Of a DNA stretch of 64,000 nt, positions 763-64,000 are shown piece after piece. The notes below the pieces were generated by a model. That model was not told the origin of the DNA. It saw nothing but the letters and a program-made list of their open reading frames with translations, and did no database searches. The position numbers and the translations under genes were made by a program. Source of the stretch: Terriglobia bacterium (GTDB lineage Bacteria > Acidobacteriota > Terriglobia > Bryobacterales > Bryobacteraceae); contig JAIQFK010000006.1 of assembly GCA_020073305.1 (NCBI GenBank), forward strand, positions 248,001-312,000. Direction: 5' to 3'. The stretch's first letter is position 1. Every line of letters starts with the position of its first letter.

Positions 763-2724
763 ATGGCGAGAACGGAAGCGCCTTCCATTCCTGTTGATGC
801 GCAGGTCAAGATTTTTGTCAGTCTCGTGATTGTTCTGGGCTGGATTGAGCTGGTTTACGGCCTGGGGCAATGGCGATCGGCCAACGCGGTCGCATTTCTC
901 GTTTACCTGGTCATCGTGCTGCTGCTTTCCGGTTGGAAGCTGCAGTTGCCGGGAGTTACGGGCGCCATCGCCGCCACTTTCGTGCTGGTGATGATTGGCA
1001 TCGTTTCGCTGAACCTGTCTGAGGTTCTTATCGCCGGCTGTGCGGCGGTTTTGCTCCAACACCTGTGGCAATCCACGAAGAATCTACGCCCGGTTCAGAT
1101 GTTGTTCGATGTTGCCGGCGCCTCCATCGCCATCACCGCGTCCTATCGAGTTTTCCATTCGTCCTGGCTGCGAAGTCTGCCACTCGAAATGCCGGTCATG
1201 CTGGCGCTGCTTGGATGTGCGTACTTTGCGGCCACGACCGTGGTGACGGCTTCGTTTATTGCACTGACCGAGGGACAATCGATCCGCCAGGTCTGGCGCA
1301 AGTCGTATCTGTGGGCATTTCCCTACTATCTGCTTGGGGCCGCGACGGCGGGTCTCTTCGACGTCGCCAAGCAACATTTGGGATCACAGACCTCGTTGCT
1401 GGTTGTGCCGGTTGCCTTTCTGGGTTACGGCACCTACCGGAAGTACCTGGGTCGCCTGGAGCAAGAAAAGAAACACGCCAACGAAACCGCGGATCTCCAC
1501 CTGCGGACCATAGAATCGCTGGCGCTCGCTATTGAAGCGAAAGATCACACCACGCATGATCATTTGCAGCGTGTTCAGACCTACGCGATGGAAATTGCCA
1601 AGGAGATGAACCTCAGTGAGAACGAGCTGCAGGCAGTGCGCGCCGCCTCTCTGATGCACGACATCGGCAAGATCGCGGTGCCCGAGCACATCGTCTGCAA
1701 GCCGGGGAAGCTCACGCCCGGGGAGTTCGAGAAAATGAAGGTCCATCCCGTGGTGGGCGCGGAGATTCTGTCGCGCGCTCACTTCCCGTACCCCGTGGTG
1801 CCGATCGTGCGCAGTCACCATGAGAAGTGGGATGGTTCCGGATATCCGGATGGACTCAGGGGCACGGAGATTCCCATAGGGGCTCGCATCCTGTCCGTCG
1901 TAGATTGCCTGGATGCCCTCGCCAGCGACCGCCAGTACCGCCGCGCGCTCCCTCTCGGCAAGGCGATGGAGATGGTGGCGGAGCAGGCCGGCACGGCATT
2001 TGATCCTGAGGTGGTGCAGATTCTGCAGAGACGCTACATCGAGCTGGAGCAGCTTGCGCGCGGAACCCCGGCCGACAGCTTCAGCCTGTCCACTAGCATC
2101 AAGATCGAACGGGGCGCCGCTCCCGCAGCAGGCTTCGAGGAGTCGAGCGATTCAGGCGCAGTTTCAGTAGCGCCCATCGCCGGTTGGGGAGCGTTGCTCG
2201 ATGTGCTGGAGACCCTGCCCGGACTTCTTGCGCCCAGAGAGGTCTTCGCACTGTGTACGGGCAGGTTGCAGGAACTCATGCCCTGCGATGGCCTGGCGGT
2301 TTACATGCGTTGCGACGATACGCTCATCCCTCAACTGGCCAGCGGGGCGAATGCGGAAGCTCTGTTGTCGTTGAAAATGTCCGTGGGTGAGGGGCTTCCG
2401 GGTTGGGTGGCCGCCAACGGAAGGCCGATTCTGAATGGACATCCGTCCGTGAATTCGGGCGAGATGAGCGGCTTAAGATCCGCTCTGGCGATTCCGCTCG
2501 AGGGCCAAGAGGAAGTCGCCGGAGTTCTGGCGCTCTTCCGCGCCCAACCGGATGCGTTCTCAGCGGGTGATTTGCAGCATCTCATGGCGCTCGGCCCGCT
2601 GCTCGGCCTTGTGGTCGAAAACTGTAGAGCGCACGGCCAGCGAGGCCGCAACAACGTAATTCCCATTGCCTCCCAGGCAACCCCGCGGGCCCGGAGCCTT
2701 CAACAAAACCTGGTCACGGTGTAA
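763..2724 (+). CDS. Membrane HD-GYP phosphodiesterase with C-terminal GAF domain
   Basis: Residues are counted from an upstream TTG at 727; the ATG at 763 is residue 13. About seven hydrophobic segments occupy residues 25-235. A short helical linker leads to an HD-GYP domain (about 265-425) with the HD pair in LMHDIGK (311-312), HxxxDGSGYP (364-374, HHEKWDGSGYP), and downstream VVDCLDALASDR. A GAF-like domain fills about 480-640. HD-GYP proteins hydrolyse cyclic di-GMP, so this is probably a membrane sensor that lowers c-di-GMP; two PilZ genes lie about 8 kb downstream. ATG 763 is preferred because a -10-like TATAGG at 710-715 would put the transcript start beside the TTG, but neither start has a strong ribosome site. 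Confidence 0.88.
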   Translation: MARTEAPSIPVDAQVKIFVSLVIVLGWIELVYGLGQWRSANAVAFLVYLVIVLLLSGWKLQLPGVTGAIAATFVLVMIGIVSLNLSEVLIAGCAAVLLQHLWQSTKNLRPVQMLFDVAGASIAITASYRVFHSSWLRSLPLEMPVMLALLGCAYFAATTVVTASFIALTEGQSIRQVWRKSYLWAFPYYLLGAATAGLFDVAKQHLGSQTSLLVVPVAFLGYGTYRKYLGRLEQEKKHANETADLHLRTIESLALAIEAKDHTTHDHLQRVQTYAMEIAKEMNLSENELQAVRAASLMHDIGKIAVPEHIVCKPGKLTPGEFEKMKVHPVVGAEILSRAHFPYPVVPIVRSHHEKWDGSGYPDGLRGTEIPIGARILSVVDCLDALASDRQYRRALPLGKAMEMVAEQAGTAFDPEVVQILQRRYIELEQLARGTPADSFSLSTSIKIERGAAPAAGFEESSDSGAVSVAPIAGWGALLDVLETLPGLLAPREVFALCTGRLQELMPCDGLAVYMRCDDTLIPQLASGANAEALLSLKMSVGEGLPGWVAANGRPILNGHPSVNSGEMSGLRSALAIPLEGQEEVAGVLALFRAQPDAFSAGDLQHLMALGPLLGLVVENCRAHGQRGRNNVIPIASQATPRARSLQQNLVTV

Positions 2725-45267: not shown

Positions 45268-46931
45268 TGCGGAATCGAGCCTATTCTGTCTGTGCCGCGG
45301 CAGCCGCCCTGGTGGGCCTATCGCCGCACACTGGAGTGAAAGCCACCGAAAACTTATTTACCGACGTCACGGCTTCTGCGGGCATTCATTGGAAACATAC
45401 CAGCGGCGAGTCCAAAGATTGTTTCCTGATTGAGGCCATGGGTGGCGGAGTGGCGCTGGCTGATTTCGATCAGGATGGCTGGCTGGACATCTTCCTGGTA
45501 ACGGGAGGCGAAACGCCGCACGCGAAGAGCTCCACGCCACCGCGCAACGCGCTCTACCGGAATCTCGGCAACGGCAAGTTCGAAGATGTCGCCGCTAAAG
45601 CCGGCGTGGAGCGGTTACCGTTTTACGGGATGGGAGTGGCCGCCGCCGATTATGACAATGACGGTTTCCCGGATCTCTACATTACCGGCTATCCTTCGAG
45701 CGCCCTCTATCACAACAACGGTGATGGCACATTCACCAACGTGACGGAGAAAGCGGGCGTCAGCAATGCCGGCAAGTGGGGCGCAAGCGCCGTATGGTTC
45801 GATTACGACGGCGATGGCCGGCTCGATCTGTTCGTGGCCAACTATGCGAAGTTCTCTTTGGACGGGCCGCAGCACTGCTCGTATGAGGGACAGCCCACCT
45901 ACTGCGCACAAACGGCATATGAAGGCGATGCGCCACGGCTCTACCACAACAACGGCGACGGCACGTTCACCGATGCCACCACACAAGCCGGACTCTCGAA
46001 GCTCATCGGGCGCGCACTGGGCGTGATTGCCATCGATGTGGATGGCGACGGCTGGCCTGACCTATTCGTAGCGCGCGACGCCTCACCCAATCTGCTCCTC
46101 ATCAACAAACATAACGGCACATTCGAAGACGCCGCGCTAAGCGCCGAAGTCGCTCTGAACATGGACGGCAACGCGCGCGCCGGCATGGGCGTGGATGCGG
46201 GCGACGTCACCGGAAACGGCTGGCCCTCGTTCGTCATCACCAATTTCAACGACGAGCACCACGCTCTCTTCGTTCATCCGGGACATTTCCCCTTTGAAGA
46301 GCGGACGGTACAATCCGGCCTGGCCAGCCTCACCCGCTCCTTTGTGGGCTGGGGCGCGCATTTTCTGGATTACGATAACGACGGCAATCTGGACCTGGTG
46401 ATTGTCAATGGCCACATCAACCAGGTGATCGAGCACACGCGCCGCGATGTCTCTTACCGCGAGCCCCCGCTGCTGCTGCACAACGACGGCCGGGGAAATT
46501 TTCAAAACATGGCCCCGCTGGCAGGTCCCGTCTTTCAGGAAAAGTTTCGCGCACGCGGACTCGCGGTCGGTGACTTGGACAATGACGGCCGCACGGATAT
46601 CGTCTTCACGCGCCTCAACGACTCGCCTGTGCTCTTGCGCAACACGGTGGCAGAGGCCGGCGCATGGATTGGGTTCCAGCTCGAAGGGACCCGCAGCAAC
46701 CGCGATGCCATCGGTGCGAAGGTGGCGGTTTCGACAGGCGAGCAAAAGCTCGTGCGCTGGATCACCGCGGGAGGCAGCTACCTGTCCTCGCATGACAAGC
46801 GCCTCATTTTCGGTCTGGGGCAGAATGCGCCCGAGCAGGTGCGCGCGGAGATCCACTGGCCCAGCGGCCAGGTCCAGACGGTTTCGGGTCTCGCGATCCG
46901 CCGATATCACAAGATCGTAGAGCCGCGCTGA
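45267..46931 (+). CDS. CRTAC1-family FG-GAP/UnbV protein
   Basis: 554 residues from a GTG at 45267; signal peptide VRNRAYSVCAAAAALVGLSPHTG. A series of FG-GAP/VCBS-like repeats carries calcium-loop sequences, e.g. ALADFDQDGWLDIFLV, AAADYDNDGFPDLYIT, WFDYDGDGRLDLFVAN, AIDVDGDGWPDLFVA, FLDYDNDGNLDLVIV and AVGDLDNDGRTDIVF, forming an integrin-like beta-propeller. The C-terminal ASPIC/UnbV domain is recognisable from WIGFQLEGTRSNRDAIGAKVAVS, SYLSSHDKRLIFGLGQ and VRAEIHWPSGQVQTV. Extracytoplasmic; ligand unknown. Confidence 0.93.
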   Translation: MRNRAYSVCAAAAALVGLSPHTGVKATENLFTDVTASAGIHWKHTSGESKDCFLIEAMGGGVALADFDQDGWLDIFLVTGGETPHAKSSTPPRNALYRNLGNGKFEDVAAKAGVERLPFYGMGVAAADYDNDGFPDLYITGYPSSALYHNNGDGTFTNVTEKAGVSNAGKWGASAVWFDYDGDGRLDLFVANYAKFSLDGPQHCSYEGQPTYCAQTAYEGDAPRLYHNNGDGTFTDATTQAGLSKLIGRALGVIAIDVDGDGWPDLFVARDASPNLLLINKHNGTFEDAALSAEVALNMDGNARAGMGVDAGDVTGNGWPSFVITNFNDEHHALFVHPGHFPFEERTVQSGLASLTRSFVGWGAHFLDYDNDGNLDLVIVNGHINQVIEHTRRDVSYREPPLLLHNDGRGNFQNMAPLAGPVFQEKFRARGLAVGDLDNDGRTDIVFTRLNDSPVLLRNTVAEAGAWIGFQLEGTRSNRDAIGAKVAVSTGEQKLVRWITAGGSYLSSHDKRLIFGLGQNAPEQVRAEIHWPSGQVQTVSGLAIRRYHKIVEPR

Positions 46932-46976
46932 TTCCGAGTAGCGCAGGCGCGTGCCGGGACCCATTAGAATTAGAAA

Positions 46977-49670
46977 TTGGCCGTGTCTCGTACGTCAACT
47001 GCCGGTAAGCTGATTCTGGCGCTCGCATGGATCGGTATCCTCGCCGGCCAGCAGGCCGCGCTCGATGAGGCTGCCGCTGCTTTCGAACAGGGCCGCGCCG
47101 CGGAAGCCGGCCAAAAGCTCGACTCCATTCTCAAGGACCATCCCGCCGATTTGCGCGCCCTCATCCTCAAAGGCGCCGTCCTCGATTCCCTCCAGCGTTA
47201 CGCCGAAGCGGAAAGTTATTACCAGCGCGCTCTCAAGCTGGCGCCGGGATCAGCCCAGGTGCTGAACAACGCGGCCAATCACTACCTGTCGAGCGGCGAT
47301 CGCCGGCGCGCCCGCGAATTGTATCGGAAGGCGATTGCCATTGAGCCGCGGCACGTCAACGCAAATCTGCAACTGGCGCAGATGAGCGTCGATGACAAGC
47401 ACGGCGCAGAGGCGCTCACTTACCTGAGCCGGTTGGGCGATTCCGCAAACTCCGACGCCGGCGCGCTCCTGCTGCGTGCGCGCGCGCTGGCCCTGGCTGG
47501 GCAGTGCGCTGACGCGACCAACTTGCTGGGCAAGCTCGAAGCGCAGCCGGCCGCCGGACCCGGCCTGTTCTTCTCTTCGGGCATGGCTTTCGCCGAATGC
47601 AAGCAGTACGATCAGGCCGAGACGTCTTTCTCCCGCGCGCTGGATGCCGACCCGAGAGATTTCGACGTCCTCTATAACCTCGGTCTCGCCGCGCTCGGAG
47701 CGGACCACCGGGACCGCGCCACCAGCGTGCTTGAGACGGCGCTCCACGAGCGGCCGGACGATGCCGACTGCCTGTATGCTTTGGCGCGCGCCTACATCAA
47801 ACAGGAACGGCTGGTGGACGCCACCGCTCTTCTGACCCGGGCGCAAAAGCTAACCCCTGGTCGGGCCGATGTGCTTCTGCTGCTCGCTCAGGTTTCGGCG
47901 CGTCTGCAGTTCTACAAGGATTCCGTCGAGGCCTATGACACCTATCTGAAACTCAAGCCGGATGATGACATCGCTCGCCGGGAACGCGGCTTTTCCCTGG
48001 CCTGCGCCAACCAGTTCAAGACCGCACTTCCGGACCTCGAGTCGTACGTGCGCAAGCACCCGCTCGACGCCGTGGGGTTCTACGAATTGTCCATTGCACA
48101 GGCGTTCGAAGACCGCGGCAGGGCCGTGCAGTCGCTGGACCACGCTTTGGCGCTGGACCCCGAGCTGGCTCCGGCCCGCTACAGCCGCGCGCTTCTGAAC
48201 ATGGAAGAGGACAAACCCGCGTTGGCCGTAGACGACTTGCAGTTCTTCGTGGCACGAAAACCGGACGATTACCGCGCACTGGCACAGCTCGGCAAAGCGT
48301 ACCTGGCGCTGGATCGCGCCGGCGAAGCCGCGGAGGTCTTGAAGCGGGCGGCGGACCTGGCTCCGAATGAGCCGCTCGTTCTGGTGCCATATCGCCGGGC
48401 GCTGGTGAAGCTCGGCCGAAGCCAGGACGGCGCGGCGATTCTGTCCCGCTTGAAGCAAGCGGGCTCCCCCGAAGGGCCCCGCCCGCAGTCCGGCTTGATC
48501 GATTATCTCAGCCTCTCTCCGGCCGCTCAGAGCGCGCGCTATCTCGCGAATCTCCGCAAGAATGCCGACGCCAACCCCGGTGATTTGCAGTGGAAGCTCC
48601 GGCTGGGAAGGGAGCTGCTCGCGGAGGGAAAAACCAGCGAAGGCATGGAAGTCTTTAACCAGCTCAAGTCGTCCTCGTCTGATCCCTCCATACTCGCCGC
48701 TTCAGGAAGAATCTTGCTCGGGTTCGAAGAGTACGAGCGTGCGCGCCAGTTTCTGGAACCGGCGGTGGCAGCCAATGCGTCTCTGAGCTCGGCCCGGCTC
48801 GATCTGGCCATTGCGCGTTTCCATTTGCAGGGCGCGCAGGTTGCGCTTTTGGAATTGGACAAGACGCCTGCCGCCGACCGGAAAGGCGACTACTACCTGT
48901 TGCGGGCTCAAATCCTCGACGCGCAGGGCAAGGTCCAGGAAGCCGCCGAGGCGCTCAACCAGGGAATTCGCGAGGCGCCAACGCAATCGGCCCTTTACCT
49001 CCAGGCTTCCGGATTCCTGCTCAAGCACCAGTTGTACGAGAAGGCTCTGGCGTTGCTCGAGCAGGCCTCGCGTATCCTGCCGGATGACCGGGATCTGCTC
49101 CTGGCGCAGGCTGTGACTCTGGCCGTGACGCCTCGTGACGACGACGCCCAGAAGCTGCTGGCGAAGATACAGGCGCGCTGGCCGGAGTGGAACCGCCCCT
49201 ACTTGCTGAACGGAATGATTCTGGAGATCCAGCTCAAGTCGGCTGAGGCGCTGCCGCTATTGGAGACGGCGATCGCCCTGGGTGCGAACACACCGGAAGG
49301 ATTCTACTACCAGGCCCTCGCAACCACGCATGCCCGGCCGGATGATCTGGAAAGTGCACGCCAGGCCATCGACCGCGCCCTCGCGTTAACTTCGAACGAT
49401 CCCTACATCTTCCTCTTGGCGGGAAAGATTTCGCTGGCGCGGAAAGACTATCAGGCAGCGGTCCGGCAGCTCGCGCAATCCACGCATCTCCTGCCCACGC
49501 TCATCCCCGCGCACTACGCCCTTCACGATGCGTACAAGGCCATCGGCGACGAGCAAAAATCCGCGGCGGAGTTAGAGGCCATCCAACATATCGCCGACGA
49601 AAATGCCGCGTCCGACAAGAGCCCGTTTCCCGTGGAGGACTTCGTATTCCGGGTGCGGCCGCCGGGCTAA
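46977..49670 (+). CDS. Large secreted TPR-repeat protein
   Basis: 897 residues. TTG at 46977 or GTG at 46983; a -10-like TAGAAT at 46965-46970 would put transcription at about 46977, implying a leaderless start. Short signal region SRTSTAGKLILALAWIGILAG, then TPR-like repeats over the whole length, e.g. ALDEAAAAFEQGRAAEAGQKLDSILKDHPAD, AESYYQRALKLAPGSAQVLNNAANHYLSSG, ATSVLETALHERPDDADCLYALARAYIKQ. Likely a periplasmic protein-interaction scaffold. Three bases before the next CRTAC1 gene. Confidence 0.86.
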   Translation: MAVSRTSTAGKLILALAWIGILAGQQAALDEAAAAFEQGRAAEAGQKLDSILKDHPADLRALILKGAVLDSLQRYAEAESYYQRALKLAPGSAQVLNNAANHYLSSGDRRRARELYRKAIAIEPRHVNANLQLAQMSVDDKHGAEALTYLSRLGDSANSDAGALLLRARALALAGQCADATNLLGKLEAQPAAGPGLFFSSGMAFAECKQYDQAETSFSRALDADPRDFDVLYNLGLAALGADHRDRATSVLETALHERPDDADCLYALARAYIKQERLVDATALLTRAQKLTPGRADVLLLLAQVSARLQFYKDSVEAYDTYLKLKPDDDIARRERGFSLACANQFKTALPDLESYVRKHPLDAVGFYELSIAQAFEDRGRAVQSLDHALALDPELAPARYSRALLNMEEDKPALAVDDLQFFVARKPDDYRALAQLGKAYLALDRAGEAAEVLKRAADLAPNEPLVLVPYRRALVKLGRSQDGAAILSRLKQAGSPEGPRPQSGLIDYLSLSPAAQSARYLANLRKNADANPGDLQWKLRLGRELLAEGKTSEGMEVFNQLKSSSSDPSILAASGRILLGFEEYERARQFLEPAVAANASLSSARLDLAIARFHLQGAQVALLELDKTPAADRKGDYYLLRAQILDAQGKVQEAAEALNQGIREAPTQSALYLQASGFLLKHQLYEKALALLEQASRILPDDRDLLLAQAVTLAVTPRDDDAQKLLAKIQARWPEWNRPYLLNGMILEIQLKSAEALPLLETAIALGANTPEGFYYQALATTHARPDDLESARQAIDRALALTSNDPYIFLLAGKISLARKDYQAAVRQLAQSTHLLPTLIPAHYALHDAYKAIGDEQKSAAELEAIQHIADENAASDKSPFPVEDFVFRVRPPG

Positions 49671-49673
49671 AGG

Positions 49674-51350
49674 ATGCGTTGGGGCGCGGCCATCTGCGTG
49701 GTTCTGTTCACGGCCTGGCTGTGGTGGCCGCTGGCTACGGGCACGTCCACAGGACCCATTCTGTTCGAGAACATCATCGATCGCTCCGGAGTGCGCTTCG
49801 TCATGGACAGCAGCACCAGCCCGCGCAAGCACCAGATCGAAACCATGGTCTCGGGCGTAGCCATCTTCGATTACAACAACGACGGGCTCATGGATCTTTA
49901 TTTCGTCAACGGCGCGCGCCTGCCGGATATGGATAAGTCCGATCCGCGTTACTGGAACCGGCTTTATCGCAACAACGGCGATGGCACGTTCACGGACGTG
50001 ACCGGAAAGGCCGGCGTGCGCGGTGCGGGCTTCGGAATGGGCGTGGCCGCGGCGGACTACGACAACGATGGCTGGGTGGATCTCTACGTCACCGGCGTCA
50101 ACCGCAATCAGCTTTTTCACAACAACGGTGACGGGACCTTTACGGACGTGACAGAAAAGGCCGGCGTGGCCGGCGTGCATCCCCAGTTGGGCAAGACCTG
50201 GTCTATCAGCGCGGGCTGGTTCGATTACGACAACGACGGCCGCCTGGATCTTTTCGTCACCAATTACGTGAACTGGTCGCTCGATACCGAGCCTTTGTGC
50301 ACGGGGGGCAGCCTCCCTGCCTACTGCTCGCCCAATAGCTATACCGGCCAGCCGAACATGCTGTTCCACAACAACGGCGATGGAACCTTCACCGACGTTT
50401 CCGAAGCATCCGGCATCGGCAAGCAGGTCGGCAAGGGCATGGGAGTCGTGTTCGCCGACTACGATGGCGACGGCTTTACAGACGTATTCGTCTCCAACGA
50501 CACCTACCGCAATTTCCTGTTCCACAACAACGGTAACGGCACGTTCCGCGAGGCCGGCATGGTTAGTGGCGTGGCCTACAACGAGAACGGCAAATCCATC
50601 GCCGGAATGGGTGCGGACTTCCGCGACGTCGACAACGATGGGCTGCCGGACATCTTTGTGGTCGGCATGGTCGGCGACACCTTCCCGCTGTTCCGCAACC
50701 GCGGCGCCGATTTCACCGACGTCACCAGCGCCTGGGGGATCACCGGCCCCACCGCCCGGTCCACCGCCTGGGGCGCCGGCATTGCCGACTTCGATAACGA
50801 CGGCTGGAAAGACCTGTTCGCCGCCTGCTCTTCCATCCTGGACAACTCCGAGGAGATCGAGCATCTTCCTTCAAAGCTTCCCAACAAAGTATTGCGCAAC
50901 ATCGGTGGAACTCATTTCGCGGACGTGAGCGCGTCCGCCGGCGCCAGCTTCGGCGTCCCTCAGGCGCATCGTGGCCTGGCGTATGGAGATCTGGACAACG
51001 ATGGCCGAATCGATGCTGTCGTGACGATCAAAGACGGCCGTCCGGAAATCCTGATGAATCGCTCGCCCGAGAAAAATCACTGGCTGCTGGTCAAGCTGGT
51101 CGGTGCGCGCAGCAATCGCGATGGCCTCGGTGCGCGCCTCAAGGCCACGCTGGCCACCGGCCGGGTTCTATATAACCATGCGACCACCAGCACCGGCCTG
51201 AGCGCTGCCAGTGATCCGCGCGTGCATTTTGGGCTGGGTGCCGCCGAGCGCGTCGACAAGCTGGAAATCCTGTGGCCCAGCGGAATCCGGCAGGTTCTCG
51301 ATAACGTGTCCGCAGACCACATCCTGACGGTTGACGAGCCGGCAAAATAG
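49674..51350 (+). CDS. CRTAC1-family FG-GAP/UnbV protein
   Basis: 558 residues. Starts three bases after the TPR stop with AAAGG immediately ahead. Signal MRWGAAICVVLFTAWLWWPLATG. FG-GAP calcium loops: FDYNNDGLMDLYFVNG, AADYDNDGWVDLYVTG, FDYDNDGRLDLFVTNY, FADYDGDGFTDVFVSN, FRDVDNDGLPDIFVVG, GDLDNDGRIDAVV. UnbV end: WLLVKLVGARSNRDGLGARL, DPRVHFGLGAAERVDKLEILWPSG. Same role and export as the first copy; the TPR-CRTAC1 order is repeated. Confidence 0.93.
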   Translation: MRWGAAICVVLFTAWLWWPLATGTSTGPILFENIIDRSGVRFVMDSSTSPRKHQIETMVSGVAIFDYNNDGLMDLYFVNGARLPDMDKSDPRYWNRLYRNNGDGTFTDVTGKAGVRGAGFGMGVAAADYDNDGWVDLYVTGVNRNQLFHNNGDGTFTDVTEKAGVAGVHPQLGKTWSISAGWFDYDNDGRLDLFVTNYVNWSLDTEPLCTGGSLPAYCSPNSYTGQPNMLFHNNGDGTFTDVSEASGIGKQVGKGMGVVFADYDGDGFTDVFVSNDTYRNFLFHNNGNGTFREAGMVSGVAYNENGKSIAGMGADFRDVDNDGLPDIFVVGMVGDTFPLFRNRGADFTDVTSAWGITGPTARSTAWGAGIADFDNDGWKDLFAACSSILDNSEEIEHLPSKLPNKVLRNIGGTHFADVSASAGASFGVPQAHRGLAYGDLDNDGRIDAVVTIKDGRPEILMNRSPEKNHWLLVKLVGARSNRDGLGARLKATLATGRVLYNHATTSTGLSAASDPRVHFGLGAAERVDKLEILWPSGIRQVLDNVSADHILTVDEPAK

Positions 51351-57720: not shown

Positions 57721-58023
57721 GGGTGGCGACTCCCTGTAACATGGGGGCCGAAGCCACGGCACGACGGGTTTTCCACAAGTAACACGGCTTTAACGTCCTC
57801 ATTTTACCCGAACTGCTGCCCCAATAATCCCGCTGCAACGGACTGAATACAAAAGACCCAAAAGTTTACATACGTCGTGACAAAGATTAACGTTGCCAAC
57901 TTTGCACTAATAGTCGGAACATACTATGCGTTCAGGGAAACTAGTTCCAAAAGGTTAGGTGCCACGCCCGAGTTCTGTCGGCGCGGCCAGGCTCGATTTT
58001 CAGAAATTCGAACAGGAGGTTTT
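57721..58023. other. Intergenic region between the propeller regulator and the second receptor
   Basis: 303 bp shared by two divergent genes. TTTACA (57864-57869)-N17-TAACGT is a weak promoter candidate for the receptor; an AT-rich stretch fills 57790-57950. No gene or structured RNA was seen. Confidence 0.35.
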
Positions 58024-61000
58024 GTGAAAAGCAGAGTTCCATTCACTTGGCTCGTTGTGGCATTGTTTGTCGCGCTGGCGTGCCTGCCAGTCGCGTGGGG
58101 CCAGCAGGTAACCGCTACCATCACGGGAAGGATCACAGACCCGTCAGGCGCCGCCGTTGCGAACGCCAAGGTCACCGCCACATCCGTGGAGCGCGGTATC
58201 CAATATCCGACCACCACGAATGCGGACGGCTACTTCAATCTCCAGTACCTTCTGGTTGGCACCTACAACGTGAAGGTGGAGAACCCAGGCTTCCAAACGG
58301 CCACGCAGTCCAACATCACACTGCAAATGAACCAGGTTGCCAAGCTTGATTTCCAACTCCAGGTCGGCAATGTCGAGACCACCGTCGAAGTGACGGCGGC
58401 GGCTCCGGTGCTGCAGACCGAGACCACGCTGCTGGGTCAAGTCATCGACTCACGGACCAATACCACGCTGCCTCTGGCCACCCGCAACTATGTTGAATTG
58501 ACGCTGCTCGCGCCTGGAAGCGTGCATCCCGACCCGTCTGCCTTCACGGGCGGCCAGACGACCGCCAGCAGCGGACGTCCCTATGTGAATGGCAACCGTG
58601 AGCAGGCCAACAATTTCATCCTGGACGGTTTGGACAACAATCAGGTGTCGGACAACCTGGTCGGCTATACACCTAGCGTGGACGCAATCCAGGAGTTCAA
58701 CGAAATCACGCAGAATGCGCCGGCGGAATTCGGTAACTTCATGGGCGCTATCATCAGCACCACGATCAAATCAGGGACCAATCAGTACCACGGCGATGCA
58801 TTTGAGTTCTTGCGCAACGACGTCTTGAATGCCAACTCGTGGGGCGACAACTTCACGAACGCTCCCAGAGGGAAATTGCGGTGGAACGAATTCGGAGCAA
58901 CCCTCGGCGGGCCGATCAAGAAGGACAAGCTGTTCTTCTTTGTGGATTATCAGGGCCAGCGCTACGATACGCCCACCAGCATTGGCGCTACCAGCCTGCT
59001 TACGGCGCAGGAACGCTCGGGCGACTTCTCAGCCCTGCTTCCCAAAGTTCAACTTTACAACCCGTTCAACGTGGTCAACGGACAGCGCGCGCCGTTTGCG
59101 GGTAACCTCATTCCAGGGAATCTCCTCGACCCGGTAGCGCAGAAAATTGTGAGCGACACCACCGCCTATCCACTGCCGACGAGCCCAGGATTGCTCAACA
59201 ACTACCTGTACGCTTCTCACACCTACAATTACGGCGATCAGGGCGACGCCAAGATCGATTGGAGTGTCAGCGACAAAGACCGCGTGTTTGGCCGGTATTC
59301 GCAAAGCATGTTCACGAATCCGACCACCAACAACGTGCCGATCTTTTACAACTCGTTCAACAACTCTCCCAGCCACACCGGTGTGCTCGATTGGACCCGA
59401 GCGGTGTCACCCACAATGGTCAATGAGGCTCGGGTAGGCGTAAACTACGTGTTTCTGAACAATGGCGCGGCGGGCAACGGGCTCGCCAATTTCCCGCAGA
59501 CCGTGGGGCTCCCCGGCACGGTGTCGGACATTCTTTCTTCCATGTCGCTTAGCGGCGGCAACGCCGCCAGCTTCGGGAGTTCCGATAACGAGCAACTCTT
59601 CGCCGATACGGTGATTCAATACGAAGACGCTCTGAACATCACCAAAGGCGCCCACAACATGCATCTCGGTTTCCAGGGTTGGCGCCAGCGCATCGACACG
59701 TTCTATTCGGGCAACAACGGGAGAGCCGGCACGTTCACCTTCGATGGCCGCTTCTCGGCCGGTCCGAATCCGTTGGCCACGGCCAGCGCCGTCAGCGGCA
59801 TCGCCGAAGCCGACTTCATGTTAGGCTTGCCCGCGCAGATCGGTGGGGGCGTAAACGGCGGTACCTGGGGGCAACGCGCCAATATCTTTGCCGCGTTCTT
59901 CCAGGACGACTGGCACGTTACGCCAAAGCTCACGCTGAACCTCGGCTTACGTTGGGAACTGCACACTCCGTGGGTGGAGGTGAAAAACCGGCAGTCTAAT
60001 TTCGGGTTGATTTCCGGCGCTCTGGAGTTGCCGGGCCAGGATGGAAACAGCAACGCCCTGTACAATACCTACAATGGCATCACCAATTTCCAACCGCGAA
60101 TAGGCTTGGCATACAACGTGGCAAAGAACACCGTAATTCGCGCCGCGTACACGCTCTCTTCGTACCTCGAAGGGACGGGCACGAACTTGCGCCTCACCAT
60201 TAACCCCCCGTTCGCGCATGAAACGGATGCCCTCTATCAATCCCTATCTGTGCCCACTTCCACGCTGAGTCAGGGATTCTTACCGCTCGAGGCCAATCCG
60301 TCGAACCCATACTCCGGCGCCGGGATTCGGCTCTGGGACCCAAACGTCCGGCCGGCCGTGTCGAACCAATGGAACCTCACAGTCCAGCGGGAGTTCGCCA
60401 GCAACACCACGCTGCAAGTTGGCTATGTCGGCCAGCGCACGGCGCATCTGATGGTCCCCATGCCGTACTTCCAGAAGCAGCTCAACCCCGACGGCACGGT
60501 CACGGGTAGCCCGTACCTGTCCGGCAATCCGGCCGTTTATGACCAGATCAGCCAGATTTCCGGCACCGCATCCAACGGCAATCAGGCTTACAACGCGTTG
60601 CAGGCTGTGTTACTAAAACGGTTCAGCAACGGCCTGGAGTACTCGGTTGCCTACACGTACTCCAAGTGCATGACGGACTCCAGCGGCTACTACGGCTCCT
60701 GGGGTGGTCAGACCACGCCAACATCGCCTTACTGGCAGAACCTTTATGACAAGAGGGCGGAATGGGGTCCCTGCTACTATGACGTGGCGCACGTTCTAAC
60801 CAGTTACGCCACCTACGACCTTCCCTTCGGCCGGGACCGCCACTTCGGCAAGAACCTCAACCCGGTCGTCAACGCGGTGGCAGGAGACTGGCAAGTCAAT
60901 GCCATTCTCAGCCTGCACACCGGCTTCGCGATCACGGCCGGAGGCCCCGATGCTTCCGGTACGAACTCGCGCGGGTCGCGCCCCGATTGCCTCTCTCCCG

Positions 61001-61344
61001 TGACCATCAATGGCAGGCAGAATTCACCGCTGGGCGGCTACCAATGGTTTGACCCGAACGCCTTTGGTCCGGCGGCGCCCGGTACCTTTGGTTCCTGCGG
61101 CGTCGGCACAATTCGCGGTCCGGGGTTAAGCACCATGGACTTGAGCCTGGCGAAGTTCTTCAACATTACCGAACGATATAAGGTGGAATTCAGAAGCGAG
61201 TTCGTCAACCTCACGAACACGCCGATTCTGAACTCTCCGAACAACGGACTAGGCACGACCATGGGCCTGCTCCAGGGCGCAGGAGGAGCCAATTTGGGTA
61301 ATTTCGGCAGACAAATCCAATTCGCCTTGAAGTTCCACTTCTGA
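58024..61344 (+). CDS. Oar-like TonB-dependent receptor
   Basis: 1106 residues from a GTG at 58024; AGGAGG at 58014-58019 decides this start. Signal SRVPFTWLVVALFVALACLPVAWG, carboxypeptidase-regulatory-like domain (VTATITGRITDPSGAAVANAKVTATS, NADGYFNLQYLLVGTYNVKVENPGF), plug (FMGAIISTTIKSGTNQYHGDAFEFLRNDVLNANSW), and a large barrel ending NLGNFGRQIQFALKFHF with C-terminal aromatic residue. A paralogue of the receptor at 51414 but with a different extracellular part, so probably a different ligand. A terminator follows. Confidence 0.94.
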   Translation: MKSRVPFTWLVVALFVALACLPVAWGQQVTATITGRITDPSGAAVANAKVTATSVERGIQYPTTTNADGYFNLQYLLVGTYNVKVENPGFQTATQSNITLQMNQVAKLDFQLQVGNVETTVEVTAAAPVLQTETTLLGQVIDSRTNTTLPLATRNYVELTLLAPGSVHPDPSAFTGGQTTASSGRPYVNGNREQANNFILDGLDNNQVSDNLVGYTPSVDAIQEFNEITQNAPAEFGNFMGAIISTTIKSGTNQYHGDAFEFLRNDVLNANSWGDNFTNAPRGKLRWNEFGATLGGPIKKDKLFFFVDYQGQRYDTPTSIGATSLLTAQERSGDFSALLPKVQLYNPFNVVNGQRAPFAGNLIPGNLLDPVAQKIVSDTTAYPLPTSPGLLNNYLYASHTYNYGDQGDAKIDWSVSDKDRVFGRYSQSMFTNPTTNNVPIFYNSFNNSPSHTGVLDWTRAVSPTMVNEARVGVNYVFLNNGAAGNGLANFPQTVGLPGTVSDILSSMSLSGGNAASFGSSDNEQLFADTVIQYEDALNITKGAHNMHLGFQGWRQRIDTFYSGNNGRAGTFTFDGRFSAGPNPLATASAVSGIAEADFMLGLPAQIGGGVNGGTWGQRANIFAAFFQDDWHVTPKLTLNLGLRWELHTPWVEVKNRQSNFGLISGALELPGQDGNSNALYNTYNGITNFQPRIGLAYNVAKNTVIRAAYTLSSYLEGTGTNLRLTINPPFAHETDALYQSLSVPTSTLSQGFLPLEANPSNPYSGAGIRLWDPNVRPAVSNQWNLTVQREFASNTTLQVGYVGQRTAHLMVPMPYFQKQLNPDGTVTGSPYLSGNPAVYDQISQISGTASNGNQAYNALQAVLLKRFSNGLEYSVAYTYSKCMTDSSGYYGSWGGQTTPTSPYWQNLYDKRAEWGPCYYDVAHVLTSYATYDLPFGRDRHFGKNLNPVVNAVAGDWQVNAILSLHTGFAITAGGPDASGTNSRGSRPDCLSPVTINGRQNSPLGGYQWFDPNAFGPAAPGTFGSCGVGTIRGPGLSTMDLSLAKFFNITERYKVEFRSEFVNLTNTPILNSPNNGLGTTMGLLQGAGGANLGNFGRQIQFALKFHF

Positions 61345-61376
61345 CGGCTCCGAGTCGTCACCAGACACCAATTGGC

Positions 61377-61410
61377 GGGGCCGCGACAGCGTTCGCGGCC
61401 CCGTAGTTTT
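61377..61410 (+). terminator. Rho-independent terminator after the receptor
   Basis: GGGGCCGCGA / TCGCGGCCCC (61377-61386 and 61393-61402), ten perfect pairs with a six-base loop, then GTAG and TTTT (61407-61410). Confidence 0.8.
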
Positions 61411-61455
61411 CTGAGCGGTCGCGCACCTGCGCTACGATTGGACTTGCCAGCAATC

Positions 61456-62445
61456 ATGAAGAGCCGGATCATTCCAGCCACCGCGGCCGTGTTGATCAGC
61501 TCCGTATTCGCCGCGGAAGCTCCGAAGAAGGCGCCTGCACCCGATCCCTCGGCTGCCGCCCGCCGCGGCGTCGAACTCGCGGAAACCGGCCAGTGCAGGG
61601 AGGCGGTGCCCATGCTGGCGAAGTCCCTATCACGCCTTGCGGATAAAGAACTCCAGAAGAGGGCAGGATTCGACGGGATCCGCTGCGCCATGGCGGCTGA
61701 TCAGATGGATTCCGCACTGGATTTCATCCGCGTACTCAACCGCGAACTCCCGCGCGACCCCGAGGTGCTCTATCTCGCGGTTCACGTTTTCTCCGACCTC
61801 TCGGTTCGCGCCTCGCAGCAACTGCTGTTCACCTCCCCGGGTTCCTACCAGGTGCATGAGCTCAATGCCGAGGCGCTTGAAACGCAAGGCCGGTGGAACG
61901 ACGCGGCGATGGAATACCGTGAGGTGCTGAAGAAGAACCCGCGCCTGCCCGGCATTCACTATCGCCTGGGCCGCCTGTTGCTTTCCGCGCCCAGGACCGC
62001 TACCAGTCGGGACGAAGCCCGGCGTGAATTTGAAGAGGAACTCAAGCTCAATGCCAACAACGCCGGCGCGGAGTACGTGCTGGGCGAACTGGCTCGCGAA
62101 GACGAGCAGTGGCCGGCGGCGATCGAGCATTTCAGCCACGCAGCGAAACTCGATGCCGGATTCGGCGACGCGTTCATCGGCCTGGGCCGCTCTCTGATCT
62201 CCGGCGGGCGCCCCGCCGAAGCCGTTGCCCCCCTGGAAATCGCGGAAAAGCTCCTGCCCGATAATCCCGCGGCGCACTTCAATCTGGCTACCGCCTATCG
62301 CCTGACGGGACGGAAGCCAGACGCGGACCGCGAGTTCGCCCTCCACCAGCAGACATCCGAAAAAATGCGCCAGATGAAGGAACAGATCCACGCCGGCGTG
62401 ACAGGCCCGCAGAACCCGATGGGCCCGCAAAAGGACGAACCGTAA
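61456..62445 (+). CDS. Secreted TPR-repeat protein
   Basis: 329 residues from the ATG at 61456, at which a signal peptide begins (MKSRIIPATAAVLISSVFA); the longer frame from 61372 overlaps the terminator. A short Lys/Pro/Ala linker leads to TPR-like helices: RGVELAETGQCREAVPMLAKSLSRLAD, AALEYREVLKKNPRLPGIHYRLGRLLL-type repeats (as DAAMEYREVL), and EYVLGELAREDEQWPAAIEHFSHAAKLDAGFGDAFIGLGRSLISGG. Shorter than the two TPR proteins at 43813 and 46977. Directly followed by another CRTAC1 gene, repeating the pairing. Confidence 0.86.
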   Translation: MKSRIIPATAAVLISSVFAAEAPKKAPAPDPSAAARRGVELAETGQCREAVPMLAKSLSRLADKELQKRAGFDGIRCAMAADQMDSALDFIRVLNRELPRDPEVLYLAVHVFSDLSVRASQQLLFTSPGSYQVHELNAEALETQGRWNDAAMEYREVLKKNPRLPGIHYRLGRLLLSAPRTATSRDEARREFEEELKLNANNAGAEYVLGELAREDEQWPAAIEHFSHAAKLDAGFGDAFIGLGRSLISGGRPAEAVAPLEIAEKLLPDNPAAHFNLATAYRLTGRKPDADREFALHQQTSEKMRQMKEQIHAGVTGPQNPMGPQKDEP

Positions 62446-62451
62446 CTTTTT

Positions 62452-64000
62452 GTGTGTAATGATCGGCTTACCTGTAGCGCAGGCCTACCCGCGGGGTTTG
62501 CGGGGAGACCTGCGGCATTTTATTGGATCCCGGCAAAGAGCCGCAGGTCCCCGCAAAAAGCGCGTGGGCCTGCGCTACATATTTCCGCCTTCCTGCTCCT
62601 CGCATTCACGCTCCACGCCGCGCCCGTTCAATTCACCAACATCACGAAATCCGCCGGCATCCACTTCATCCATTTCAAGGGCGCCAACGGAACGTCGACC
62701 ACGCTCGAAGAGGCCGGTCCTGGCGTATGCGTGGCCGATTTTGACGGCGATGGCTACCAGGACATTTACTTCGTCAACGGCCGCGATCTCTACAAACGCG
62801 GCATTACCACACGTAATGCGCTCTACCGCAATAACGGCGACGGCACATTCACCGACGTCACGGAAAAGGCGGGCGTGCCCGGCGATGCCTACGGCCTCGG
62901 CTGCGTGTGGGGCGATTACGACAACGACGGTTTCCCCGATCTGTACGTGACGCAGTACGGGAAAAACATCCTGTATCACAACAACGGCAACGGCACGTTC
63001 ACCGACGTCACCGACAAGGCCGGCGTGGGCGGATCGGATTTCGGCACCGTGTTCCACACCGGCGCCACGTTCCTTGATTACGACCGCGACGGCAAGCTCG
63101 ATCTCTACGTAGGCGGCTACGCAAACTTCGGACCTACCAGTCAGCGCACTTGCACCATCGGTTACGGCGTGGTCACCAGTTGCCGGCCCACGGTGTACGG
63201 CGGCACGCCGGACGTGCTCTATCACAACAACGGCGACGGAACCTTCACCAATGTGACCAAAGCGGCGAAGATCTTCCAGCCCAAGGGCCTGAATCTTTCC
63301 GTAGGCGCCGCGGACTACGACAACGACGGCTGGCCCGACCTGTTCGTCGCCAATGATGGCATCGAGGCGTACCTCTACCACAACAACCACAACGGAACGT
63401 TCACCGAAGTGGCGGTGACGAGCGGCATGGCGCTTACTTCGAATGGCAACGCCATGGCAGCCATGTGCATCTCGCTGGGTGATTACGACAACGACGGCTA
63501 CCTCGATTTGTACATTTCCGATTTCCAGTTGTCCTCCGATCACGTCTGGCACAACGACGGCAAGGGCTTCTTCGATGAAGTGAGCGACAAGGCGGGAATC
63601 ACCGTGCCGACCCGCAATGTGCTGAGCTTCGGCGGCGGCTTCTTCGACTACGATAACGACGGCTGGCTGGATCTGTTCATCGTGAATGGCCACGTCTATC
63701 CGGAAGTCGAGCAGGTCTCGCCGGACATTCACTACAAACAGATCAACTCGCTGTTCCGCAACGACACGCACGGTAAATTCACCGAAGTAACCAGGAGTTC
63801 GGGCGACGGATTTTCGACTCCGTACGCCGGCCGCGGCGCCGCATTCGCCGATTTCGACAATGACGGCAACATGGATATTGTGGCGGCCAATAACGGCGAC
63901 CCGCCGCTCGTACTGCACAACTCCGGCGGCACTGGCAATCACTTCCTCAACTTCAAACTGGTGGGGACCAAAAGCAACCGCGACGGCATGGGCGCGCGCA
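62452..64000 (+). CDS. CRTAC1-family FG-GAP/UnbV protein, C-terminus beyond the window
   Basis: Open to the window edge. The usual signal (ISAFLLLAFTLHAA) begins right after a 105-bp palindrome, and the only standard start in frame upstream is GTG at 62452, which would add 43 residues encoded mostly by the palindrome. Mature part has VQFTNITKSAGIHFIHFKG, then FG-GAP loops ADFDGDGYQDIYFVNG, GDYDNDGFPDLYVTQY, LDYDRDGKLDLYVGGY, ADYDNDGWPDLFVAND, GDYDNDGYLDLYIS, FFDYDNDGWLDLFIV and FADFDNDGNMDIVAAN, then the beginning of UnbV (FKLVGTKSNRDGMGAR). Family call firm; start unresolved. Confidence 0.85.
   Translation, partial: MCNDRLTCSAGLPAGFAGRPAAFYWIPAKSRRSPQKARGPALHISAFLLLAFTLHAAPVQFTNITKSAGIHFIHFKGANGTSTTLEEAGPGVCVADFDGDGYQDIYFVNGRDLYKRGITTRNALYRNNGDGTFTDVTEKAGVPGDAYGLGCVWGDYDNDGFPDLYVTQYGKNILYHNNGNGTFTDVTDKAGVGGSDFGTVFHTGATFLDYDRDGKLDLYVGGYANFGPTSQRTCTIGYGVVTSCRPTVYGGTPDVLYHNNGDGTFTNVTKAAKIFQPKGLNLSVGAADYDNDGWPDLFVANDGIEAYLYHNNHNGTFTEVAVTSGMALTSNGNAMAAMCISLGDYDNDGYLDLYISDFQLSSDHVWHNDGKGFFDEVSDKAGITVPTRNVLSFGGGFFDYDNDGWLDLFIVNGHVYPEVEQVSPDIHYKQINSLFRNDTHGKFTEVTRSSGDGFSTPYAGRGAAFADFDNDGNMDIVAANNGDPPLVLHNSGGTGNHFLNFKLVGTKSNRDGMGAR
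62474..62578. repeat. 105-bp imperfect palindrome (REP/MITE-like)
   Basis: Left arm starts GTAGCGCAGGCC and carries TTTGCGGGG and ACCTGCGGC; the right arm read backwards gives GTAGCGCAGGCC, TTTTTGCGGGG and ACCTGCGGC with small mismatches and gaps. About 35 of 42 arm positions pair, with a central ATTTTATTGGATCCCGG segment. No transposase or target duplication was seen. It separates the TPR and CRTAC1 genes. Confidence 0.75.

Follow-up and report, generated by a model that had tools for sequence, protein, structure and literature searches.

The window, by which we mean the whole 64,000-nucleotide stretch of DNA that was analysed, carries at its end a gene for a TPR-repeat secreted protein followed by a gene for a CRTAC1-like (FG-GAP repeat) secreted protein, with a palindromic element lying inside the open frame of the latter (Table 1). 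The element begins 27 nt past the TPR stop codon and directly adjoins the hydrophobic core of the CRTAC1 signal peptide on its upstream side. In the contig, the CRTAC1 gene runs for 594 codons, uninterrupted by stops or frameshifts, and its stop codon is located about 234 bases past the window end. The order TonB/Oar-like, TPR, CRTAC1 (window 57877-62445) was kept in G020, where a TonB-like C-terminal end lies just 5' of the TPR gene (L073). The CRTAC1-like FG-GAP family is large, with 19 places in the genome at E <= 1e-100, and occupies positions 45400-51100 and 62600-64000 of the window.

Table 1. Features of the TPR-CRTAC1 junction and related loci (window positions unless a contig is given)
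Feature	Coordinates	Strand	Basis
TPR-repeat secreted protein gene, ATG 61456 to TAA 62443-62445	61456..62445	+	TPR Pfam hits; orthologous TPR upstream of CRTAC1 in L072, L073, L104
CRTAC1-like (FG-GAP repeat) secreted protein gene, open from GTG	62452..64000 (window end)	+	ORF, Pfam, orthologs
GTG, only standard CRTAC1-frame start upstream of the signal core, 6 nt past the TPR stop	62452..62454	+	sequence, ORF list
ATG 13 nt past the TPR stop, candidate pre-insertion start	62459..62461	+	sequence; ORF 62450-62950; flank joining
Element assigned as REPIN (two REP units joined head to head as a heterodimer, GTAG ends facing outward)	62473..62579	.	fold; 15 like dimers in the genome
REP unit 1, TGTAG + hairpin, 'CCTAC' (Y-like) type	62473..62522	+	covariance-model match 63.7 bits; alignment, fold
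REP unit 2, TGTAG + hairpin, 'CCCACG' (Z-like) type	62534..62579	-	covariance-model match 68.0 bits; alignment
Signal peptide hydrophobic core (ISAFLLLAFTL) and end, ISAFLLLAFTLHAA	62581..62622	+	translation, hydropathy scan
TPR leader with two REP units (C26)	L018 (G000:C26:288476-291541), about 1330-1615	-	85 extra codons vs G001
RAYT gene	C41:109720-110205	-	between two outward-facing units, 109659-109703 and 110206-110251

Structure and extent of the palindrome

The 105-nt imperfect palindrome at 62474-62578, on which the preliminary description of this DNA had been built, proved to be real. The minimum free energy of its fold was -75.9 kcal/mol, far below that of shuffled sequences (-42.8 +/- 3.8 kcal/mol; z = -8.6), and none of 200 shuffles was as stable. 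At the outer edge, a further pair is formed by T 62473 and A 62579. As the leading T (of TGTAG) is present in 53 of the 57 repeat units found in the genome, 62473-62579 (107 bp) is the better delimitation of the repeat. The length of the element is either 105 or 107 bp, the ends being uncertain by 2 bp because the leader of the nearest ortholog (84% identical) is too diverged for base-by-base alignment. The longer value is favoured by the conserved T and by the behaviour of E. coli TnpAREP, which cuts single-stranded REP sequences at C|T and retains the T (PMC8266576). An element length of 103 or 106 bp would not leave the ancestral frame intact. The element had no match in Rfam.

A dispersed family of GTAG-ended repeat units

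A search for further copies of the element, conducted by BLAST within its own genome and then with a covariance model of one unit of approximately 48 nt built from 28 units, identified 57 related units at 40 places. They were arranged as 15 '+-' inverted pairs with GTAG facing outward, one '+--' trimer and 24 single units, and no '-+' or '++' clusters within 60 nt were present among them. The inverted pairs measure 99-109 bp, and those that were aligned combine two unit types, 'CCTAC' and 'CCCACG'. Each unit consists of TGTAG followed by a hairpin of 12 pairs, five of which show changes on both sides that preserve pairing (in 11 sequences, for instance, U-A replaces C-G). The GTAG was invariant in all 28 aligned units and remained unpaired at the hairpin foot in the consensus fold; folds of individual units gave z values of -4.2 and -2.4.

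Most copies are located between genes or at gene ends rather than inside genes. REP units or pairs also end 3-13 nt 5' of other start codons (L013, L008, L255, L242, L057), the genes behind them encoding an aldehyde dehydrogenase, a ceramidase-like protein, exported proteins and the REP-associated tyrosine transposase (RAYT) itself; gene 5' ends thus seem to be frequent neighbours of the REP family. Several other copies lying in long stop-free stretches were considered as decorated genes and rejected, as a normal start is found just past the element (e.g., MKIAILFFSF on C7, MKNWLFACF on C30). A general W-W-C-Y bias was observed just 5' of the units. Upstream of about six units lies a longer common stretch resembling CGTGCGTGTGAACY (C1:201890, C4:290690, C22:234639, C36:101895, C38:235330, C26:289975), which suggests an extended form of the element or a shared target module.

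The RAYT transposase and the distribution of the units in relatives

The genome has seven Y1-transposase places. The product of the RAYT gene on C41 matched the NCBIfam equivalog NF047646 'REP-associated tyrosine transposase' with 105 bits (cut-off 80) and contains an HWH motif and a YIHQNP tyrosine segment. The putative cleavage site here, ACC|TGTAG, would be compatible with the C|T cleavage reported for E. coli (PMC8266576). Sixty relatives were compared. In the same-genus G001, 18 units were detected, and a RAYT (57% identical) is flanked by units; the congeneric G002 carries 10 weaker ones and lacks a close RAYT, and two others contain 2-4 weak units. This distribution makes the REP family in essence a feature of the genus.

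Dispersed inverted pairs of TGTAG hairpins, together with a RAYT gene flanked by outward-facing units, led us to conclude that the palindrome is almost certainly a REPIN of GTAG-type REPs with a cognate RAYT. The defining features of the GTAG super-family and of its head-to-head heterodimers, or REPINs, were taken from published descriptions (PMC3733652, PMC6006769). The present family shares with them the GTAG at the unit foot, the imperfect hairpin, the inverted pairs of two unit types with GTAG outside, the dispersal and the unit-flanked RAYT, whereas its own sequence, the long irregular stems, the low copy number (57) and the acidobacterial host set it apart. The pairing of 'CCTAC' with 'CCCACG' recalls that of Y with Z units in E. 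coli. In acidobacteria, related transposases had been described as flanked by unrelated inverted repeats, not by GTAG units (PMC3733652). The C41 protein, a predicted transposase, resembles known RAYT/TnpAREP proteins (NF047646; PMC2817692, PMC8266576) in its HUH motif, catalytic-tyrosine segment, equivalog match and flanking REPs; it differs in sharing only 47-57% identity with the closest copies detected among the relatives.

Orthologous junctions lack the palindrome

Three orthologous loci in which CRTAC1 directly follows the TPR gene were available for comparison. The CRTAC1 ortholog of G002 (L072) is 84% identical and starts with an ATG 9 nt past the TPR stop, that of G020 (L073) is 73% identical and starts with a GTG overlapping the TPR stop, and that of JANXRE (L104) is 68% identical and starts with an ATG 4 nt past the TPR stop. 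The palindrome was absent from the TPR-CRTAC1 junction in all three, so the element is a later insertion, specific to the lineage of the window. This comparison of empty sites rests on orthologs, since the species itself is represented by one genome and offers no exact empty site. The earlier proposal that the element arrived at the CRTAC1 start was thus borne out, the related junctions having ordinary starts and the genome harbouring many copies. Since the starts lie at +9, across the stop and at +4 nt, this gene pair seems as a rule to use coupled re-initiation, a pattern into which a GTG at +6 fits.

Start codons and reading frame of the CRTAC1 gene

The codons were found as previously described: GTG 62452 is the sole standard in-frame start before the signal peptide. 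No ATG, GTG or TTG occurs in the CRTAC1 frame between it and the signal core, and the next standard in-frame start is located 151 nt past the element, within the FG-GAP region. No good Shine-Dalgarno sequence was identified at GTG 62452. Its frame runs through the REPIN and places approximately 43 residues with a net charge of +6 ahead of the signal core, and the hairpin of -76 kcal/mol starts 18 nt past the GTG codon. ATG 62459, which the preliminary description had overlooked, starts 14 nt 5' of the element in another frame and now runs out of frame to a stop at 62950. When 107 bp were removed, ATG 62459 was fused in frame with the signal core (MIGLPISAFLLLAFTLHAAPVQF); when 105 bp were removed, it was GTG 62452 that was fused in frame (VCNDRLTYISAFLLLAFTLHAAPVQF). 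As one or the other upstream codon rejoins the core once the element is taken out, the element more likely interrupts the leader than replaces it, and the view that it had replaced the start region of the gene is probably wrong. A small deletion of the original n-region may have accompanied the insertion.

Compared with G002, the CRTAC1 gene showed a dN of 0.09 and a dS of 1.45. Its distances to three outgroups were 0.171, 0.183 and 0.138 differences per non-synonymous site, versus 0.192, 0.187 and 0.147 for the G002 ortholog. As judged from these substitutions, there is no decay and no accelerated protein change, which is not decisive because a recent insertion would look alike. The open frame through the element was rejected as evidence of translation: the frame used by CRTAC1 is open in 12 of the 15 dimers of the genome, being common by composition, and so does not prove translation.

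A second gene with REP units in its leader

A TPR gene on C26 provided a second case. In its orthologs (the one in G001 is 76% identical), the start codon overlaps the preceding gene's stop (...DDAGH*), and the corresponding ATG of the C26 gene (MPATRS...) has stayed in frame across two REP units. Relative to G001, 255 nt (85 codons) with the two units are extra between the ATG and the signal core; a shorter in-frame start, MRTIAF, lies between the units. An 11-nt direct repeat, CGAACGATTGC, was observed ahead of the first unit and again ahead of the second. The distances of the C26 gene to two outgroups (0.288 and 0.272) were not raised relative to those of G001 (0.262 and 0.279) in a comparison that leaves out the G002 values, which looked wrong. 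This gene lends support to the notion that REP units are read as leader sequence in this genome, but is no proof of it.

Discussion

The following course of events would account for the locus. The REPIN would have been spread by the RAYT of the genome and would have inserted between the CRTAC1 start and the hydrophobic core of the signal peptide, with the old start codon most likely preserved. Ribosomes ending the TPR gene would re-initiate at GTG 62452, six bases downstream, and translation through the REPIN would add some 43 residues, mostly REP-coded and rich in Arg and Lys, before the signal core; the CRTAC1 protein with the longer leader would presumably still be exported. We consider the chances somewhat better than even that CRTAC1 is still made by such read-through. 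The preliminary description had left a choice between an odd translated N-terminus and a lost start; the lack of decay, the spacing of the GTG and the C26 gene lean to the former, without deciding the matter.

The reading that competes most closely is that the REPIN broke the gene, leaving a very young pseudogene or a trace of expression, GTG 62452 being hardly used. It is less probable but far from negligible. The conserved T...A borders match an insertion of 107 bp, which is not a multiple of three and would have thrown the original ATG 62459 out of its former register with the core, so that it now leads to the stop at 62950. GTG 62452 has no good ribosome-binding site, and with 18 other CRTAC1-like places at E <= 1e-100 in the organism the loss of this one may be tolerated. 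Against a broken gene stand the 594 codons free of stops and frameshifts and without acceleration, the GTG in the right frame at a coupling distance typical of the orthologs, and the C26 TPR gene, which stays in frame through its two REP units. The hairpin may, as its predicted stability implies, slow or stop ribosomes after the GTG. Its extreme predicted stability in the transcript, and the position of most copies between genes or at their ends, are also what would be expected if the REPIN acted mainly on the RNA of the two co-transcribed genes, stabilising the TPR message and lowering CRTAC1, with coding effects secondary; REPs elsewhere are thought to affect mRNA stability and translation (PMC3733652). 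We regard this as unlikely to be the main effect, though it is compatible with the other readings: the element lies within a frame that reaches the signal peptide and no start follows it, so a coding effect is unavoidable.

Initiation at the non-standard ATT 62581 just past the element, also raised in the preliminary description, appears very improbable. ATT start codons are very rare, and what speaks for this one is its position directly adjoining the hydrophobic core on the 5' side; it would have no ribosome-binding site, an n-region without a basic residue and a very stable hairpin immediately upstream. The idea that the TPR-CRTAC1 operon has in the element an ancient, conserved regulatory structure can be practically dismissed, as we found no point in its support, the element is absent from the junction in L072, L073 and L104, Rfam gave no match and related copies occur at 39 unrelated places.

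REPs within ORFs, N-termini included, have already been described (PMC3733652). The locus resembles the Rickettsia palindromic elements (RPEs; including RPE-1 at protein N-termini) in having a palindromic repeat in a gene with the frame kept open, here N-terminally, and differs from them in its GTAG ends and RAYT. CGTC forms the end of RPE-4 and RPE-6 repeats, and no transposase is known for CGTC repeats (PMC3733652); an assignment to the CGTC type was rejected, as the units end in GTAG. We found no literature linking Rickettsia palindromic elements with signal peptides.

The results add an acidobacterial genus to the hosts of GTAG REP/RAYT pairs and provide a clear case of a REPIN that landed between a start codon and a signal peptide, which can be compared with empty orthologous loci. 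A broader proposal, which we put forward as doubtful, is that the RAYT-driven REPs of the genus became coding in the leaders of exported proteins, those of CRTAC1 (C25, one REPIN) and TPR (C26, two units) being translated and the REP-coded Arg/Lys-rich peptides serving as n-regions of extended signal peptides. If the leader is indeed translated, the leaders of exported proteins would be a tolerant place for such elements to turn coding, as reported for the Rickettsia RPEs.
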